Positions 6,622 through 13,815 of a DNA stretch of 37,221 nt are shown one piece after another. The stretch lies in NCBI GenBank assembly GCA_937129385.1, contig CAKZNC010000022.1:1-37221 (forward strand). Reading direction: 5' to 3'. The stretch's first letter is position 1; each line of letters opens with the position of its first letter. The notes under the pieces were generated by a model, which saw only the letters and a list, made by a program, of their open reading frames with translations, was not told where the DNA came from and made no database searches. This stretch comes from an uncultured Bacteroidota bacterium (GTDB lineage Bacteria; Bacteroidota; Bacteroidia; Bacteroidales; GCA-2748055). Position numbers and translations under genes: made by a program.

Positions 6622-6713
6622 TCGCAGTCCAGGCAGACTGTCCGACAACAAGCATGGAGCACGAACGAAAAACTGTGGCAGTGTTTTTGCACTTCTGTAT
6701 AAAAAAGAGTGCC

Positions 6714-7058
6714 ATGACAAAAAGATATTTTCTGCTGGTGATCGCAACTGCCTTTACGCTGGCGGTGAACGGACAAAAGGTTTTTGTTGTTGATTACGCT
6801 TCACAGGCCGATGTGAAGGTTTTCACCGTGAAATATGAATCGCAGGCCGACCTGACGGTGTACCTGGTGGATTACGCGTCACAGGTGGATCAGGACGGGA
6901 AATGGTATTTTGTGGAATATGCTTCGCAGGCCGATAAAAAAATCTATTTCGTGGAGTATGAATCGCAGGCCGACCTGAAGATTTATTACGTGGAATATGC
7001 TTCACAGGCCGAATGGAAGAATCCCAATAAAAAGCACCTGATGGCAAGTCAGAATTGA
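6714..7058 (+). CDS. Small secreted repeat protein, DUF6150-like
   Basis: 114 residues. The ATG at 6714 is chosen because it places a signal peptide (MTKRYFLLVIATAFTLAVNGQ) at the N-terminus; an ATG 60 bases upstream would spoil it. The mature part is six near-tandem ~12-residue units (VFVVDYASQADVK, VFTVKYESQADLT, VYLVDYASQVD, WYFVEYASQADKK, IYFVEYESQADLK, IYYVEYASQAEWK). This matches a Bacteroidota family I recall as DUF6150, of unknown function. Alternating hydrophobic and polar residues with conserved YxSQAD turns suggest a stacked beta structure such as a small solenoid. It starts 92 bases after the amidase gene on the same strand. Confidence 0.8.
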   Translation: MTKRYFLLVIATAFTLAVNGQKVFVVDYASQADVKVFTVKYESQADLTVYLVDYASQVDQDGKWYFVEYASQADKKIYFVEYESQADLKIYYVEYASQAEWKNPNKKHLMASQN

Positions 7059-7212: not shown

Positions 7213-7641
7213 TTATTTCCTGGACAGCAGGTGGTCGATGCTGATTCTGCCTGAACCGTAAACCATCAGGGCGAATAGCATCAGGAAATAATACAATGGA
7301 ATCTCTATTCCATTGTCTCCTGCTGCGAATCCATTACCGATATGTACCGTAAAGATGGCCACCAGCATGACGATCATCATCGGCACAGCAATGATCCTTG
7401 TTCCCAGCCCGAGGGCAACCAAAATCACACCAAGCGCTTCCGTAAGCATTGCAAGCAGGGCGAGGATAAATGGCGCTGGATACCCCATACTTCCAAACCA
7501 GTCTGCGGTTCCCTGTAGTCCTTTCAGTTTCATCATTGCCGGTTCCAGGAATCCATAGGCAAGAATGAGCCTGAAAAAGAGCAATGGAACATCCTTCAAA
7601 CCGGTAACACGGCGAATAAAATTATTGTATATTGATCTCAT
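7213..7641 (-). CDS. hvfD: DoxX-family membrane protein (HvfD-like)
   Basis: 142 residues with four hydrophobic helices (about 17-33, 55-78, 81-103 and 114-131), the typical length and layout of DoxX proteins. Near the N-terminus it has the RLILAYGFLEPAMMKLKG segment seen in many DoxX members. It is the last gene of the hvf-like set, 108 bases after hvfC. DoxX proteins (HvfD/GigD) recur at the end of MNIO-DUF2063 precursor operons; their role is unproven, with quinone-linked or transport functions suggested. The symbol reflects position and family. Confidence 0.85.
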   Translation of the reverse strand: MRSIYNNFIRRVTGLKDVPLLFFRLILAYGFLEPAMMKLKGLQGTADWFGSMGYPAPFILALLAMLTEALGVILVALGLGTRIIAVPMMIVMLVAIFTVHIGNGFAAGDNGIEIPLYYFLMLFALMVYGSGRISIDHLLSRK

Positions 7642-7749
7642 TTTTAAATACTTAATGCTGTCAAATCATTGGTTTCAAATTCTCTTTACCGGCGCCCGGC
7701 CGGTTGTCCGGGTGCAGCAAATGTTCCCTGGGTTGCCGGAGACTGAAAT

Positions 7750-8505
7750 TCAACTTACTGCAAAACCGAGGACCATCTTCTTTTCCATGAGGTTGCCCAT
7801 AAAATCCCGCAGGTAATCATCCAGGTATTTCTCACTTTCAATGGAGGCGATACTGGCGATCTCTCCCTTGAATTCATTAAGTGGAATCCCCTCTTCGTTG
7901 ACTTTCATCAGAATAAAAGCATGAAGAACCGAAAGGTCGATGAACCGCACTCGTCCTGTTTCCGGCTCACGATAAAGGAGCACATAATACTCTCCCCGGT
8001 GGGATTCAATATCAACCAGGCTCTGCTTATGCACCGGAAATTCAAGTTGCAGTACTTCGTGCTCGGGATTCAATATCAACGGATCAACCAGGGAATCTCC
8101 CTCTTCGTTATACGGCAATACATCACGGTCCGGCATTGTATGCACTTCGATCTCCGCCCATTCGAACCAGAGCAGATCATTCAGCCATGCTCTCTTAAGC
8201 TTCGTTGCCGTGTTTTTTGAATAATGGTACTCGTAAAACTCATGTGGAAGTTTCCATATCTGCGTCGACCTCGGTGCGTGGTTAGAAAAGAAATCATTCA
8301 CGAGCTCATCCCACAGGACGGTTCCAAGAGCGGATGAGGCGATGGGATATGCCTGATCCATCGAATTCTTCACGACGTTATAAACGAGCCTGCGGTAGTG
8401 TTTTATTCTTCCTTCGGTAACACCTGGGAGACTTACCTCCCTGCCCGTCTTGCAATAGTCACCCAGGCGGTGCTGGATGTCACGCGTTTCCTTGTGCAGC
8501 TTCAT
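7750..8505 (-). CDS. hvfC: DUF2063-family protein, MNIO partner (HvfC-like)
   Basis: 251 residues. The N-terminal ~95 residues match the DUF2063/HvfC-BufC 'putative DNA-binding' domain pattern (RIKHYRRLVYNVVKNSMDQAYPIASSALG..WDELVNDFFSNHAPRS..IWKLPHEFYEY). The rest is a mixed alpha/beta domain typical of the family's C-terminal half. It overlaps hvfB by 26 bases, so translation is probably coupled. In characterised systems (MbnC, HvfC, TglB-like partners) the protein binds the leader of the precursor and presents it to the MNIO enzyme; direct DNA binding is not established. No signal peptide: cytoplasmic. Confidence 0.88.
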   Translation of the reverse strand: MKLHKETRDIQHRLGDYCKTGREVSLPGVTEGRIKHYRRLVYNVVKNSMDQAYPIASSALGTVLWDELVNDFFSNHAPRSTQIWKLPHEFYEYHYSKNTATKLKRAWLNDLLWFEWAEIEVHTMPDRDVLPYNEEGDSLVDPLILNPEHEVLQLEFPVHKQSLVDIESHRGEYYVLLYREPETGRVRFIDLSVLHAFILMKVNEEGIPLNEFKGEIASIASIESEKYLDDYLRDFMGNLMEKKMVLGFAVS

Positions 8506-9325
8506 GTACGACCCCCCATTTTTTTCTGATCAGATCCCTGAGATGATCCAGTTCCGCAGATATCGATTCCAGGTCTTCAAAATTATAGTCTCTTTCAAGC
8601 AGCACCGGAACCGGTTCCATTCTGTCGATGGTATATTCGAAAAGGTCGTATACCGGATCGATGATCGGTCGACCATGTGTGTCAATGATCAGGTCCTTTT
8701 CCACCTTTTCATGCCCGGCCATGTGAATGTACTCCACCCTATCAAGTGGCATGTTGTCAATAAAACTTCGTGCATCATACCCATGATTGAAGGCATTTAC
8801 ATAGACATTATTGACATCCAGCAGCAGGCGGCAGTCAGATTTTTCGACAATAGAACAGATGAAATCTGTTTCAGACATCTCAGCGGCCACCGGTGTATAA
8901 TAAGATACATTCTCAATTGCAATCCGGCGTCCAAGTGCTTCCTGAACGCGCATGATCCTTTCCGAAACGTGGTCAACGGCATCTTTCCTGAACGGAATTG
9001 GAAGCAGATCATACAGATGTGCATTTTTTGACTTCGTATAACTAAGGTGCTCCGAATAGATCTGTACCTGGTTCTCATCCAGAAAAGCTTTCAGTTCACT
9101 GACAAAATCCCAGTCAAGTTCTTCCGGGCTCCCGAGTGACAAAGAGAGTCCATGGCATGTGACAGGGTATTTCGAAACCGCCTTTTCCCTGATCCTGTTC
9201 CAGTAGCCTCCGATCCCCATCCAGTTTTCGGGGGCAAATTCAATGAAATCGGGACGTATCGGCTCAGAATCAATGATTTCATTTGCAATGTCCCTGCGAA
9301 GTCCTATTCCTACCTTTCCTTTCAT
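8480..9325 (-). CDS. hvfB: MNIO (DUF692) multinuclear iron enzyme, HvfB-like
   Basis: 281 residues, the usual length for DUF692 TIM-barrel enzymes. Likely iron ligands and conserved motifs are present: H58 (TCHGLSLSLG), H93 (SEHLSYT), E138-N139 (IENVSYYT), D170 and N173 (LLLDVNN), H181 (NAFNHG), H201/H205 (HMAGHE), D215/H217 (DTHG) and E244 (LLERDYNF). MNIOs use O2 and a multi-iron centre to rewrite Cys residues in ribosomal peptides. HvfB from Haemophilus acts on Cys in EGKCG motifs, giving copper-binding heterocycles. It lies just downstream of an EGKCG precursor and overlaps hvfC, so the same role is inferred here. No signal peptide: cytoplasmic, acting before export. Confidence 0.92.
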   Translation of the reverse strand: MKGKVGIGLRRDIANEIIDSEPIRPDFIEFAPENWMGIGGYWNRIREKAVSKYPVTCHGLSLSLGSPEELDWDFVSELKAFLDENQVQIYSEHLSYTKSKNAHLYDLLPIPFRKDAVDHVSERIMRVQEALGRRIAIENVSYYTPVAAEMSETDFICSIVEKSDCRLLLDVNNVYVNAFNHGYDARSFIDNMPLDRVEYIHMAGHEKVEKDLIIDTHGRPIIDPVYDLFEYTIDRMEPVPVLLERDYNFEDLESISAELDHLRDLIRKKWGVVHEAAQGNA

Positions 9326-9343
9326 GGTGTTATTTTTTGAAGG

Positions 9344-9390
9344 ACCGCGGTTGTGCCGGCAGCAGAACCGCTCCGTTGCACAACCACGGT
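9344..9390 (-). promoter_or_regulatory. Stem-loop between hvfA and hvfB
   Basis: On the transcribed (minus) strand, 9390-9378 pairs with 9356-9344 over 13 bp with one G-U wobble, enclosing a GC-rich 21-base loop that can fold further. There is no following T-run (the next bases are A-rich), so it is not an ordinary terminator. Its place between precursor and enzyme genes suggests partial attenuation, or RNA processing and protection that keeps the precursor mRNA in excess. Confidence 0.6.
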
Positions 9391-9413
9391 AATATTGAAT
9401 TGTGATTCAATGA

Positions 9414-9836
9414 TCAGCCACATTTTCCTTCACCACATTTTCCCTCACCGCACTTATGCTCGGCTGATTTGCTTTCACCTTCCTTCGCTTCGGTTTTTGC
9501 ATCACCTTTTTTGGCAGATTTTTTATCTCCCTTTTTTGACTTGGCGTCTGCTGACTTCTTATCGGATTTCTTATCGGATTTCTTATCAGCTTTTTTGTCA
9601 CCTTCACCACATTTCCCTTCACCACATTTCATATCACTTACCTTGTAGGCATGAATGGTCCGGGCATCTTTTGTTGCTGCGTTCATCTCAACCAGGTTGC
9701 TGCGCAACTCAGCACCTGAACCCAGGTCATTGTATTCAAGCAGCTGCTCTGCTGGTGTTGCTGCCATTGCTCCTGTCGTCATCACAGCACCTGCCAACAG
9801 TGCTGCGGATTTTAAGATCTTTTTCTCTTTTTTCAT
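9414..9836 (-). CDS. hvfA: HvfA-like Cys-rich RiPP precursor (bufferin-type)
   Basis: 140-residue predicted precursor of a modified, probably copper-binding, exported peptide. It has a Sec-type signal (residues ~1-25, ending GAMA-ATPAEQ) and a ~40-residue segment (LEYNDLGSGAELRSNLVE). Two Cys clusters follow: residues 70-78 (KCGEGKCGE; C71, C76) and 128-140 (KCGEGKCGEGKCG; C129, C134, C139). They are separated by ~50 residues made almost only of Lys, Asp, Ser, Ala, Gly and Glu with KKSD repeats. EGKCG occurs three times, with variants DMKCG and EHKCG. EGKCG is the substrate motif of HvfA-type peptides, and the next genes are MNIO, DUF2063 and DoxX. The long linker with two clusters is unusual. 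The modification state is inferred from homology only. Confidence 0.88.
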   Translation of the reverse strand: MKKEKKILKSAALLAGAVMTTGAMAATPAEQLLEYNDLGSGAELRSNLVEMNAATKDARTIHAYKVSDMKCGEGKCGEGDKKADKKSDKKSDKKSADAKSKKGDKKSAKKGDAKTEAKEGESKSAEHKCGEGKCGEGKCG

Positions 9837-9876
9837 GATATTGAATTATTTTGATTAAAAATATGCTGATTAATTG

Positions 9877-9902
9877 GTCGGAAGACGGAGGGAATTCCTT
9901 AC
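9877..9902 (-). promoter_or_regulatory. Candidate ECF-type promoter of hvfA
   Basis: On the minus strand GTAAGG (9902-9897) and CGAC (9880-9877) are separated by exactly 16 bases, about 40 bases before the hvfA ATG. The layout resembles the GTAACC-N16-CGAA type described for the SigF ECF factor that controls bufferin genes in Caulobacter. A second reading uses the nearby CGTCT. No similar element is seen before the sigma gene itself. Suggestive only. Confidence 0.35.
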
Positions 9903-9921
9903 AAAGAAATTTTCTCTTCCT

Positions 9922-10230
9922 TTATTTCCCGGTCATCTCCTTTTCCACGGTCTCTTTCATGGAGGTCCTGGTTTCGTCCGTCAACATATGGACCACGGTT
10001 CCATCGGTGTATTGGTTCTTGTAGCGGTAAACCATGTGCTGCAGGTCATTGATCTGGCTTGCATATTGCCTGCACACAAGACAGGTCACCAGGTGGATCC
10101 TGAGGCCGATCTTTTCCCTGCAGTTCAGTTTTGTTTCCTTGGATTTCGAGACCAGGTAGCCTGCTTTGTCACAACTGATCATTTTTTCGACCATGTACAC
10201 TTTCATCCTTTGTCCCACGTTCATTGACAT
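9922..10230 (-). CDS. Small ZAS-type zinc-finger protein, putative soluble anti-sigma factor
   Basis: 102 residues. It contains the HxxxCxxC motif typical of zinc-binding anti-sigma factors (HLVTCLVC, residues ~48-55), with further Cys upstream at ~20 and ~37 (ISCDKAGYLVSK, LNCREK). There is no membrane helix; the remainder is a polar, Met-rich tail. It starts 3 bases after the sigma stop codon, so the two are co-translated. The first ATG is used; ATGs at codons 3 and 9 are alternatives. A cytoplasmic ZAS protein could sense metal or redox state directly, as RsrA and ChrR do, but that role is inferred from motif and position. Confidence 0.75.
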   Translation of the reverse strand: MSMNVGQRMKVYMVEKMISCDKAGYLVSKSKETKLNCREKIGLRIHLVTCLVCRQYASQINDLQHMVYRYKNQYTDGTVVHMLTDETRTSMKETVEKEMTGK

Positions 10231-10233
10231 GAT

Positions 10234-10821
10234 TTATATCCAGTTTGATTCAATACATCCCCTGAGTTTTAGCCTGGCCCGATGCATCATCACCCACACA
10301 TTTGACGGAGTAATGTCCAGCTCCTTACAGATTTCTTCAGATGTTGCGTCGTCGATCATCTTCATGACAAACACTGCTGCCAGGTTTTCGGGCAATGCGG
10401 CAATACATTTTTCAAGGATCTCCCTCAACTCGTTGTTCTCGACCTCCCCTTCCGGCATCAGCGAATTGGAATGTGGCATCTTCTCCTCTTTCCAGTGTCC
10501 TTTCTTTATGCCATAGTAGTCGAAATAATCATTGTCCTCAAACGAATCGGTGATGTCCTGCAAATTGGATTCCCTGTTGCTGCTGTTCTTCCTGTAAATA
10601 TCGATGATCTTTCGTTTCAGGATGGAGGTCAGCCAGGTCTTTTCCGTACTGTTGCCCCGAAAGGTATGCTGTCCCTTCAGAGCCGACAGGAAAGTTTCCT
10701 GCACTACATCCGCTGCTTTTTCAGGGTCGGACAGGCGCACCACCGCATAATTAAAAAGGTAATCTGCGTATTGATCCACCCATCTCCCGGGATCCAGTTT
10801 ATGTGATTTTCCTTTTGCCAA
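10234..10821 (-). CDS. ECF-type RNA polymerase sigma factor
   Basis: 195 residues. Region 2 lies at ~15-85 (DYLFNYAVVRLSDPEKAADVVQETFLSALKG, then FRGNSTEKTWLTSILKRKIIDIYRK) and region 4 at ~130-190 (ALPENLAAVFVMKMIDDATSEEICKELDITPSNVWVMMHRARLKLRGCIE). The only plausible start is TTG, preceded by AGGAAG; no ATG is available before region 2. The interdomain segment (~95-125) is acidic and relatively long. It sits directly upstream of a ZAS protein and the hvf-like genes on the same strand, so it likely controls that cassette. The signal is unknown; copper or oxidative stress would fit the targets. Confidence 0.9.
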   Translation of the reverse strand: MAKGKSHKLDPGRWVDQYADYLFNYAVVRLSDPEKAADVVQETFLSALKGQHTFRGNSTEKTWLTSILKRKIIDIYRKNSSNRESNLQDITDSFEDNDYFDYYGIKKGHWKEEKMPHSNSLMPEGEVENNELREILEKCIAALPENLAAVFVMKMIDDATSEEICKELDITPSNVWVMMHRARLKLRGCIESNWI

Positions 10822-12300: not shown

Positions 12301-13815
12301 TTATTTAGTAGTTAATAATTGGTCTGCTTCGCAAACTACCCTGAATCCCACGTGGTAACAATCTGAGTACCACCAGATACTTTTGGGTATCTGTGGATCT
12401 GTCCGGAGCCAGTTGTCATGGTTCGTCCTGTTCCTGTCTGAGATCCTCAGTTCAGCAGCATTGCTCAGGAATGAACCTCCCCTGATCACGTGCTCTTCAC
12501 CTCCTGCTGTCACAATTGGGTTGCTGACCGGACCCGGGAATTGGTCGTACGCATTTGCAAGATAGATATCCTGACAGAATTCTGCCACGTTTCCAAGCAT
12601 ATTTTTAAGTCCGTATGGATTTTCCTGCACTTTCCCCGGTGTTTGTGACCTCCCCCCCGAATTTTCACTGTAGATGACATAGGAGTTGATCACACTGGTA
12701 TCGATGCCGAACAGCCTGGCACGCAATCCTTCATCTGCATAATCCTTCACATCCCCCTCAAAAAAGTAGGCGCCGGTTGTGCCGCCCCTGGCAGCATATT
12801 CCCATTCAGCTTCCGTTGGGAGCCTGTATTTTTTACCTGTGACGACCGACAGCCATTCACAGTATTTCTCTGCCGCATAATAGGTCATTGTGATCGCCGG
12901 GCGTTTCCCTTTCCCCCATCCCTGGTCGGGATTGCCATAGGGCGGCGTTGCTCCTGAGAGTCCGTCCACTCCTTCCAGCATACCAATATCCGTGGTCCTG
13001 CCCTCCCCTGCGGTCTGCGCATACCAGGTCAGGAATTCATCCCAGGTCACCTCAACCTCCCCGATAAAATAGTTGTCCAGGGTCACTTTGCGGGCGGGAT
13101 GCTCGTCCTGTTCAGCATACTTATCCCCTTCATCAGCTCCCATAGTAAAGGTGCCGCCGGGTATTGCAATCATTTTAAAACTTACAGCTGACAGGGGGAT
13201 GGTTTCGGTGAAGTCGTCGAATGCTGTGACAACTGCAGGTTCTTCGTAGAGGGTATCCGGCAGCTGATCTTTTGTTCCGAACTCCACATTTGCAGCATGG
13301 ATCACATTTTTGTTGTAGTGCCCCGCGTCGATGTGACATTTGATACAGGCCACTGCACCTTCCTGCTGCTCATAATAGAGGTGGGCATCCATCCCTTCGT
13401 GGGTGATCTCCAGCGGGAAGAGATTCTGATGACAGTGCACACATGAGATATCCTTTGTGAAATGTACAGCATTCTCCGGCCTTGACTTCAATTCCCAGTT
13501 GATCTCCGACGAATCCTTGAAGATGGCACCATACACATCCCTCAGTCCGGTTGCGATCTTAGCAGGCAGATACCCTTCGCCCTTCGGCGGAAGGTGACAT
13601 TCCACGCAATGCACGATGGTTCCGGATGCAGTGTTGTAGTGCACCGATTGTTTCCAGGTGGTGGTTGAATGTGGATGGAAATGGCACTTGTTGCAAAATT
13701 CATCTGTGGAGGTGATCTCCACAACCTTATTGAACCCCGAAAGGAGGAGTCCGCCTGCAATAATTCCTGCAAGAAGTGTCAGGATCTGTATTCGCCTGTA
13801 GTTTTTTGCCGACAT
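12301..13815 (-). CDS. NapC/NrfH-like tetrahaem cytochrome fused to a SUMF1-like domain
   Basis: 504 residues. An N-terminal membrane anchor (~10-28) is followed by four CxxCH haem sites at C41 (CNKCH), C70 (CVECH), C125 (CVHCH) and C157 (CIKCH), the layout of NapC/NirT/NrfH quinol-oxidising cytochromes. From ~205 to the end runs a formylglycine-generating-enzyme-like fold (IPGGTFTMGADEGD, EVEVTWDEF, RLPTEAEWEYAARGG, GLKNMLGNVAEFCQD, VIRGGSFLSNAAELR, VGFRVVCE). The catalytic Cys pair of true FGE is not evident, so this domain is probably a binding or scaffold module, as in GldJ/GldK. It likely passes electrons from the quinone pool to a periplasmic partner, perhaps linked to the co-transcribed Gfo/Idh/MocA enzyme. 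That link is inference. Confidence 0.9.
   Translation of the reverse strand: MSAKNYRRIQILTLLAGIIAGGLLLSGFNKVVEITSTDEFCNKCHFHPHSTTTWKQSVHYNTASGTIVHCVECHLPPKGEGYLPAKIATGLRDVYGAIFKDSSEINWELKSRPENAVHFTKDISCVHCHQNLFPLEITHEGMDAHLYYEQQEGAVACIKCHIDAGHYNKNVIHAANVEFGTKDQLPDTLYEEPAVVTAFDDFTETIPLSAVSFKMIAIPGGTFTMGADEGDKYAEQDEHPARKVTLDNYFIGEVEVTWDEFLTWYAQTAGEGRTTDIGMLEGVDGLSGATPPYGNPDQGWGKGKRPAITMTYYAAEKYCEWLSVVTGKKYRLPTEAEWEYAARGGTTGAYFFEGDVKDYADEGLRARLFGIDTSVINSYVIYSENSGGRSQTPGKVQENPYGLKNMLGNVAEFCQDIYLANAYDQFPGPVSNPIVTAGGEEHVIRGGSFLSNAAELRISDRNRTNHDNWLRTDPQIPKSIWWYSDCYHVGFRVVCEADQLLTTK

Follow-up and report, generated by a model that had tools for sequence, protein, structure and literature searches.

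The window analyzed here is a stretch of 37,221 nucleotides from contig CAKZNC010000022.1 of an uncultured Bacteroidales bacterium (assembly GCA_937129385.1), in which six open reading frames (ORFs), all on the minus strand and running from 10821 to 7213, make up a presumably co-transcribed operon. It combines an extracytoplasmic function (ECF) sigma factor and a ZAS-type zinc anti-sigma factor with a cysteine-rich precursor of a ribosomally synthesized and post-translationally modified peptide (RiPP), an MNIO maturase, a DUF2063 partner and a DoxX-type membrane protein (Table 1). A first-pass annotation had marked out this cassette at 7213-10821; its extent is confirmed, and the gene families named there are borne out by Pfam and NCBIfam matches. 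The curated NCBIfam cut-offs are passed by the MNIO, the sigma factor and HvfX and missed with the HvfC and HvfA models, while the ZAS falls 0.3 bits short. The full HvfABCD/bufferin set proposed for the last four genes holds as a RiPP cassette of the HvfABC(X) type. Assignment to the strict bufferins (Buf1) was rejected, as the precursor has no DUF2282 match, and the cassette belongs with the oxazolin/captophorin systems. For the fourth of these genes, HvfX is the correct name instead of HvfD (PMC13419390). The host was rightly addressed as a bacterium with a type IX secretion system, since PorU, PorV and a PorP/SprF-family protein are encoded within the window, each above its cut-off.

Table 1. 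Features of the sigma/ZAS-linked RiPP operon, with positions numbered along the window.
Feature	Position	Strand	Evidence and remarks
ECF sigma factor, TIGR02943 family	10234..10821	-	TTG start; TIGR02943 174.1 bits vs cut-off 162.2; Sigma70_r2 and r4_2 above cut-off
ZAS-type zinc anti-sigma factor, soluble	9922..10230	-	C20-X25-H46-X3-C50-X2-C53; NF052368 (antisigmaE) 49.7 vs cut-off 50
Candidate ECF promoter	9877..9903	-	-35 TGTAAGG (9903-9897), -10 CGAC (9880-9877); in the ZAS/precursor gap
RiPP precursor, HvfA-like, 140 aa	9414..9836	-	LGSGAELR leader motif at residue 38; five KCG
Stem-loop, precursor/MNIO intergenic	9344..9390	-	Minimum free energy -34.7 kcal/mol, z -6.4; no U-run after the stem
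MNIO (DUF692), HvfB-type maturase	8480..9325	-	NF003818 and PF05114
DUF2063 partner, PME1/HvfC-like, putative peptide recognition	7750..8505	-	PF09836 and NGO1945_C; model fold
HvfX/DoxX membrane protein	7213..7641	-	NF050144 123 bits vs cut-off 80; PF07681 above cut-off

The cassette was compared across 73 loci, comprising 70 fetched by an MNIO scan, two further ones and the window. A synteny survey of Bacteroidota had been suggested in the first-pass annotation. In this set, sigma-ZAS-A-B-C(-X) is a recurrent gene order in Bacteroidota and Ignavibacteria, and 41 of the 73 loci (window included) encode a sigma homologue on the strand that carries the MNIO gene, so that the gene association is not due to chance. 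In L074, the sigma and ZAS genes are positioned after DoxX. Leaving out the window, a DUF2063 homologue was detected in 70 and DoxX in 42 of 72 loci, several of which lie on contigs that end early; the DoxX gene of L083 is on the opposite strand. The loci stem from Bacteroidales, Chitinophaga, Flavobacteriales and Ignavibacteria, and versions lacking the sigma gene occur in Chlamydiota and other groups. On genome level, a TIGR02943 sigma factor (E <=1e-30) is present in 14 of 16 relatives with an MNIO versus 6 of 45 without. Evenly sampled genomes of the phylum contain a match to the HvfB model (E <=1e-60) in 12 out of 247 cases, the window's genome included, with six above cut-off; five of the six matches below it (L141-L145) are associated with differently built cysteine-rich precursors and no HvfC or DoxX match. 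Among Pseudomonadota, an HvfB match at E <=1e-90 was found in 40 of 348 genomes (centre genome included). Within 30 Pseudomonadota loci, considering 1.5 kb on each side, one (L162) encodes both a sigma and a ZAS homologue next to the cluster, two (L156 and L176) have a weaker sigma match alone and one (L161) has a loose promoter match. In the MNIO tree (106 rows), the nearest relative of the window is L017 (77% identical). A Bacteroidales-type group of 14 rows (SH-aLRT 98) contains both. In this short search, the 70 rows of the Bacteroidota/Ignavibacteriota/Chlamydiota side are separated from the sampled Pseudomonadota with a support of 92 (not starred).

When the upstream regions of 13 near loci were aligned, the motif TGTAAGG-N15-CG[T/A]C emerged de novo in the gap that separates the ZAS gene from the precursor gene. 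In 67 loci (6 of the 73 being without a precursor call), the 120 nt ahead of the precursor start were then searched for the pattern TGTAAG-N16/17-CG[TA]. Of the 40 loci with a sigma gene in cis, 32 have it there, versus 2 of the 27 without, compared with 140 of 20,047 random 120-nt windows from the same loci serving as control. The spacing has one length in 32 of the 34 instances and is one base longer in L084 and the window. One of the two motif-bearing loci without cis sigma (L031) lies on a contig starting 75 nt before the precursor. The other, L030, and L029, both from Labilibacter, have a TIGR02943 sigma elsewhere in the genome; the strict motif is found in L030 and a near copy in L029. 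Neither a sigma (E 1e-30) nor the motif was found in L034 and L028, and in L052 a decayed promoter copy occurs with no sigma found (146 of 203 candidates scored). For the Neisseria sigma-E, a consensus of GTMAGBWTT, 12-13 nt and CGTCTAAH has been reported (PMC2893595). The best site differs from it by only one or two of 17 letters in 24 of the 40 cis-sigma loci, and up to four mismatches are reached in 33 of these 40, in 6 of 25 loci without cis sigma and in 8.3% of mononucleotide shuffles. With a 13-nt spacer, the site of the window deviates at three letters. The agreement of this independently found Bacteroidota motif with the Neisseria sigma-E consensus points to a tie between the sigma type and this peptide across phyla. 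A copy of the motif ahead of the sigma gene itself was observed in only 1 of 41 loci (L075, loose pattern), and not in the window. Regulation by the sigma/ZAS pair, which the first-pass annotation had deduced from co-linearity, is thus supported by candidate promoters as evidence beyond gene order.

Further upstream elements were considered. As -35 element, a TTAAAAT box ahead of the precursor was rejected due to its variable distance to GTAAGG. A TATCTTG element precedes the sigma gene in 11 of the 13 near loci (TATCTTT in the window); it was first considered as a possible ECF promoter and resembles the Bacteroidota housekeeping -7 element. Within the sigma coding sequence of the window (10304-10329, minus strand), there is a TGTAAGG-N15-CGTC match, as also found in the sigma genes of five relatives; in the window it encodes CKELDITPS and is probably coding rather than regulatory.

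The ZAS of the window shows the C-X25-H-X3-C-X2-C spacing that is also printed for RsrA and NMB2145. An ORF with H-X3-C-X2-C follows the sigma gene in 40 of the 41 cis-sigma loci (exception L084); in 37 of them the upstream Cys/His stands at X25, in the other three at X26-27. In RsrA, NMB2145 and HrsE, a zinc-thiol anti-sigma factor frees its sigma once the cysteines react (PMC2893595, PMC7907618; the latter names ECF group 13). Based on the matching spacing, a thiol/redox or thiophilic-metal signal appears likelier than copper-specific sensing.

The precursor carries its cysteines at residues 71, 76, 129, 134 and 139 within five KCG motifs, three of them EGKCG, which form two clusters joined by a Lys-rich linker. 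No Pfam family exceeds its cut-off, and the NF050137 HvfA domain scores 12.8 versus a cut-off of 19.5. By eye, the N-terminus is signal-peptide-like, with KKEKK, a hydrophobic stretch and AMA-A. Between this segment and the core, the leader motif [LM]G[STN]Gxx[VLI]R is conserved in 60 of 67 precursors, and in 64 with a relaxed pattern that misses two Pseudomonadota and one truncated locus. Conversely, [LM]xxGY appears in only two of the 67, equal to the number of Pseudomonadota among them (L081 and L083). KCG-bearing ORFs were also counted in 30 Pseudomonadota loci, 29 of which contain one: here, the first motif is found in 0 and [LM]xxGY in 28 of 29 precursors. We propose the leader motif as putative recognition sequence of the DUF2063 protein. 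The intergenic region between precursor and MNIO is predicted to fold into a stem-loop, and in 51 of 63 homologous regions the RNA reaches z < -2 in comparison to dinucleotide shuffles. Since the stem of the window lacks a U-run, control of stability or processing would be as likely a role as termination.

Two variations of the core were noticed in the locus set. Five Chitinophaga precursors (L034, L047, L061, L063, L064) are devoid of KCG, with Ala, Ser, Thr or Val following KC; all five loci are without cis sigma and promoter. In L020-L023 and L025-L027, sequence resembling EGKCG codons was seen by eye between the precursor stop and the MNIO start, most clearly in L020, and looks like repeats lost to an earlier stop.

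The MNIO is the sole PF05114 match (E 2.6e-98) in the 4.28-Mb assembly (99.7% complete) and reaches 373.5 bits with the HvfB model NF003818 (cut-off 360). Residues N175, D242 and H244 are essential in HvfB (PMC13419390); alignment to 3bww, by which the numbering is possibly one off, places their equivalents at N172/N173 (Asn either way), D215 and H217. The partner protein passes PF09836 (50.1 versus 27.2) and PF22106 (NGO1945_C, 27.6 versus 27) and remains below the HvfC model NF050145 (112.1 against 142), which assigns it to the PME1 class instead of an HvfC equivalog. Its AlphaFold2 model (pLDDT 91.8) has NGO1945 of Neisseria as best match in the PDB (3dee, Foldseek E 4.9e-8), followed by TglHI chains and, weakly, by chains of the MbnABC complex, with the five best matches all originating from MNIO systems. 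The first-pass annotation referred to copper-binding heterocycles known from the HvfA cysteines. The modification has since been reassigned to 5-thiooxazole, the Cu-binding group formed by HvfBC-type enzymes (PMC12668002, PMC13419390). A methanobactin-like chalkophore for copper acquisition would draw on the same enzyme superfamily, the MbnB model TIGR04159 giving E 1.5e-16, far below its cut-off. However, the partner is of the PME1/DUF2063 type, the six genes include no transporter and each chain offers several modifiable cysteines. The methanobactin type was rejected on partner and HMM scores, and we rate a chalkophore as very unlikely.

Taken together, we regard it as probable that the cassette is a Bacteroidota captophorin (oxazolin-type) operon under its own sigma/ZAS switch, in which a sigma-driven promoter ahead of the precursor leads to a 5-thiooxazole peptide binding metal in the envelope. 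As a cytoplasmic zinc-thiol protein, the ZAS would keep the ECF sigma inactive until its cysteines are oxidized or the zinc is displaced by a thiophilic metal. The freed sigma would read the GTAAGG/CGTC-type promoter directly ahead of the precursor, driving precursor, MNIO, DUF2063 and DoxX genes, with the stem-loop possibly favouring precursor over enzymes. The DUF2063 protein is then predicted to bind the LGSGxxVR leader and the MNIO to convert KCG cysteines into 5-thiooxazoles. The peptide would finally exit via Sec and, once in the envelope, bind a thiophilic metal, primarily Cu(I).

Several observations weigh against this reading. The precursor and the DUF2063 protein stay below their NCBIfam cut-offs and the ZAS slightly so, and the promoter of the window is imperfect (three mismatches and one extra spacer base). 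The strict motif is missing in 8 of 40 cis-sigma loci, including L017 with a partial motif only (TGTAAGG without CG[TA]), and L041 and L043 have a TIGR02943 sigma elsewhere yet no promoter motif. A scan of seven genomes for the CGTC form of the motif gave 23 matches versus 49 for the reversed pattern, hence no excess. By coordinates, four of the 23 are RiPP promoters, six lie within sigma genes and 13 remained unclassified; the pattern misses the RiPP promoters of three of the seven genomes, which do not end in CGTC (window, L023 and L017 types). At the sole msrA (PF01625) of the genome, no promoter of this type facing the gene was found in the 3.5-kb locus (MsrB was not part of the search), which holds one loose match on the opposite strand. 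Once relatedness is taken into account, the association of sigma and promoter stays consistent without reaching significance: three starred independent pairs were available in the first tree (p 0.25) and two in a fuller one (p 0.5). The first tree left out 11 rows with a stop near the end and 7 of 14 comparison loci; the fuller one takes both, with stretches cut at the stop. The motif never opposes sigma in the independent pairs of either tree, and with so few pairs significance is out of reach. Furthermore, no MNIO was found in three same-genus genomes, one of them only 68% complete. This last point, the small number of five cysteines and the imperfect promoter could also be attributed to decay of the cassette, with a peptide that this strain has ceased to modify. 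Nevertheless, all six ORFs are intact and the catalytic residues are retained, rendering decay highly improbable.

The underpowered phylogenetic test would also fit a sigma/ZAS pair that is a mere neighbour with other targets, the RiPP genes being transcribed independently. No cis sigma was found in 27 of 67 loci, some of them cut by contig ends, and pairs of the same family do adjoin other genes. Eight TIGR02943 loci without adjoining MNIO were fetched, six from MNIO-less genomes and two as second copies from MNIO genomes. In seven of them the sigma is only 36-39% identical, while L128 is closer (53%) and likewise without RiPP genes; a ZAS-like ORF or match follows the sigma in seven, the contig of L133 stopping at it. 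None of the seven loci with a paralogous sigma (36-39%) has the motif (L133 with its sigma at the contig end), and the lone match in this set, in L128, lies inside the sigma coding region. In contrast, the Neisseria-like promoter stands ahead of the precursor mainly where sigma is in cis, and we therefore consider mere neighbourhood scarcely plausible. As a side observation, the paralogous pairs of L127 (1725-2602), L132 (2122-2958), L129 and L131 lie near a rhodanese/thioredoxin-like gene, L129 and L132 also having YceI-like genes (names by eye), possibly representing a second redox switch in the order.

A more substantial alternative concerns the job of the peptide. The same enzymology and switch may serve oxidant defence (HOCl, peroxide, electrophiles), with metal binding being incidental, as suggested by the ZAS of the RsrA/NMB2145 thiol class. 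The homologous DoxX/COG3220/DUF2063 operon of Haemophilus influenzae responds to HOCl through RpoE2/HrsE (PMC7907618), and copper-treated Microbulbifer yielded no detectable proteins of an EGKCG cluster (PMC12538549), a finding that also counts against the preferred captophorin reading. In light of these two reports, the label “copper-buffering” given in the first-pass annotation is not established. On the other side, Cu binding is documented for characterized EGKCG products (PMC12668002), the sigF operon of Caulobacter with its DUF692 gene is induced by Cr and Cd (PMC3511200) and meningococcal sigma-E expression is unaltered by oxidants (PMC2893595). Oxidant defence is consequently held as a possible, tentative explanation.

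Regulator, promoter and cargo of this abundant type of peptide lie within 3.6 kb here, so that a single reporter made of the 27-bp promoter and sigma/ZAS would suffice to compare Cu, Ag, Zn, HOCl, peroxide and electrophiles as candidate inducers. For substrate-recognition tests, the leader motifs of the two lineages supply defined residues to exchange and mutate. Going further, we advance with reservation, as a conjecture that may well fail, that the sigma/ZAS pair of Bacteroidota and Ignavibacteria acts as a private redox switch which is not autoregulated and has the adjacent captophorin promoter as sole target, and that DUF2063 reads a leader code, LGSGxxVR, unlike the LxxGY of Pseudomonadota. 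If true, private switch and own leader code would constitute a self-contained sensor-to-metallophore module.

Two neighbouring features of the window were noted in passing. Convergent with the operon, a DUF6150 protein (6654-7058, plus strand) consists mostly of similar repeats of ~13 residues (VxYxSQAD), and a single ORF at 12301-13815 (minus strand) fuses a NapC/NirT-type multihaem cytochrome N-terminus to an FGE-sulfatase domain.

In comparison with known systems, the Buf_EGKCG/oxazolin class shares EGKCG precursors, MNIO, DUF2063 and DoxX with the operon. This class is mostly found in Pseudomonadota, and sigma factors and NrsF are reported for Buf1 clusters with none mentioned for EGKCG in the accessible parts of that survey (Microb Genom 2025, PMC12452194), whose main text contains no word starting with “bacteroid”. 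No treatment of sigma/ZAS-linked EGKCG clusters in Bacteroidota, of their promoter or of the leader motif was found in a literature search from which supplements were excluded and outside which subscription journals mostly lay. The Caulobacter sigF-NrsF bufferin operon CC3254-3257 similarly places an ECF sigma and a cysteine-dependent anti-sigma over DUF692-DUF2063-DoxX, differing in its DUF2282 precursor, in NrsF taking the place of ZAS and in the promoter GTAACC-N16-CGAA (PMC3511200). The hvfABCX (oxazolin) operon of Haemophilus influenzae matches in precursor, MNIO, DUF2063 and DoxX and in its control by ECF sigma and ZAS (PMC7907618). There, however, the pair acts in trans from the msrAB region and the ZAS has 67 aa, whereas it is in cis and of 102 aa in the Bacteroidales operon.

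The closest likeness is the Neisseria rpoE operon NMB2140-2145 / NGO1948-1943 (ngo biosynthetic gene cluster), a cotranscribed unit encoding DoxX, three proteins that were hypothetical at the time, sigma-E and ZAS (PMC2893595), whose peptide gonophorin is a Cu-binding 5-thiooxazole RiPP (PMC12668002). It shares sigma-E, the C-X25-H-X3-C-X2-C ZAS, DoxX and DUF2063 (NGO1945); from the ngo cluster we infer that its remaining two genes are precursor and MNIO. The Neisseria promoter, with -35 GTAAGGTT and -10 CGTCTAA (PMC2893595, PMC12668002), has a candidate equivalent before the precursor in the window. In Neisseria, DoxX comes first and sigma/ZAS last behind one autoregulated promoter ahead of the whole operon, whereas the Bacteroidales operon starts with sigma/ZAS and has its promoter internally, before the precursor, and none before sigma. 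The msr link of Neisseria and Haemophilus was not found at the single msrA here. The first-pass view of a little-characterized system therefore holds for lineage and layout and has to be given up for the combination of sigma and ZAS with RiPP genes: the six kinds of genes together are already known from Neisseria, and what is new, judged by the papers found, is, besides the lineage split of the leader motifs and the stem-loop between precursor and MNIO, their lineage, layout and spread as well as the promoter layout in Bacteroidota.

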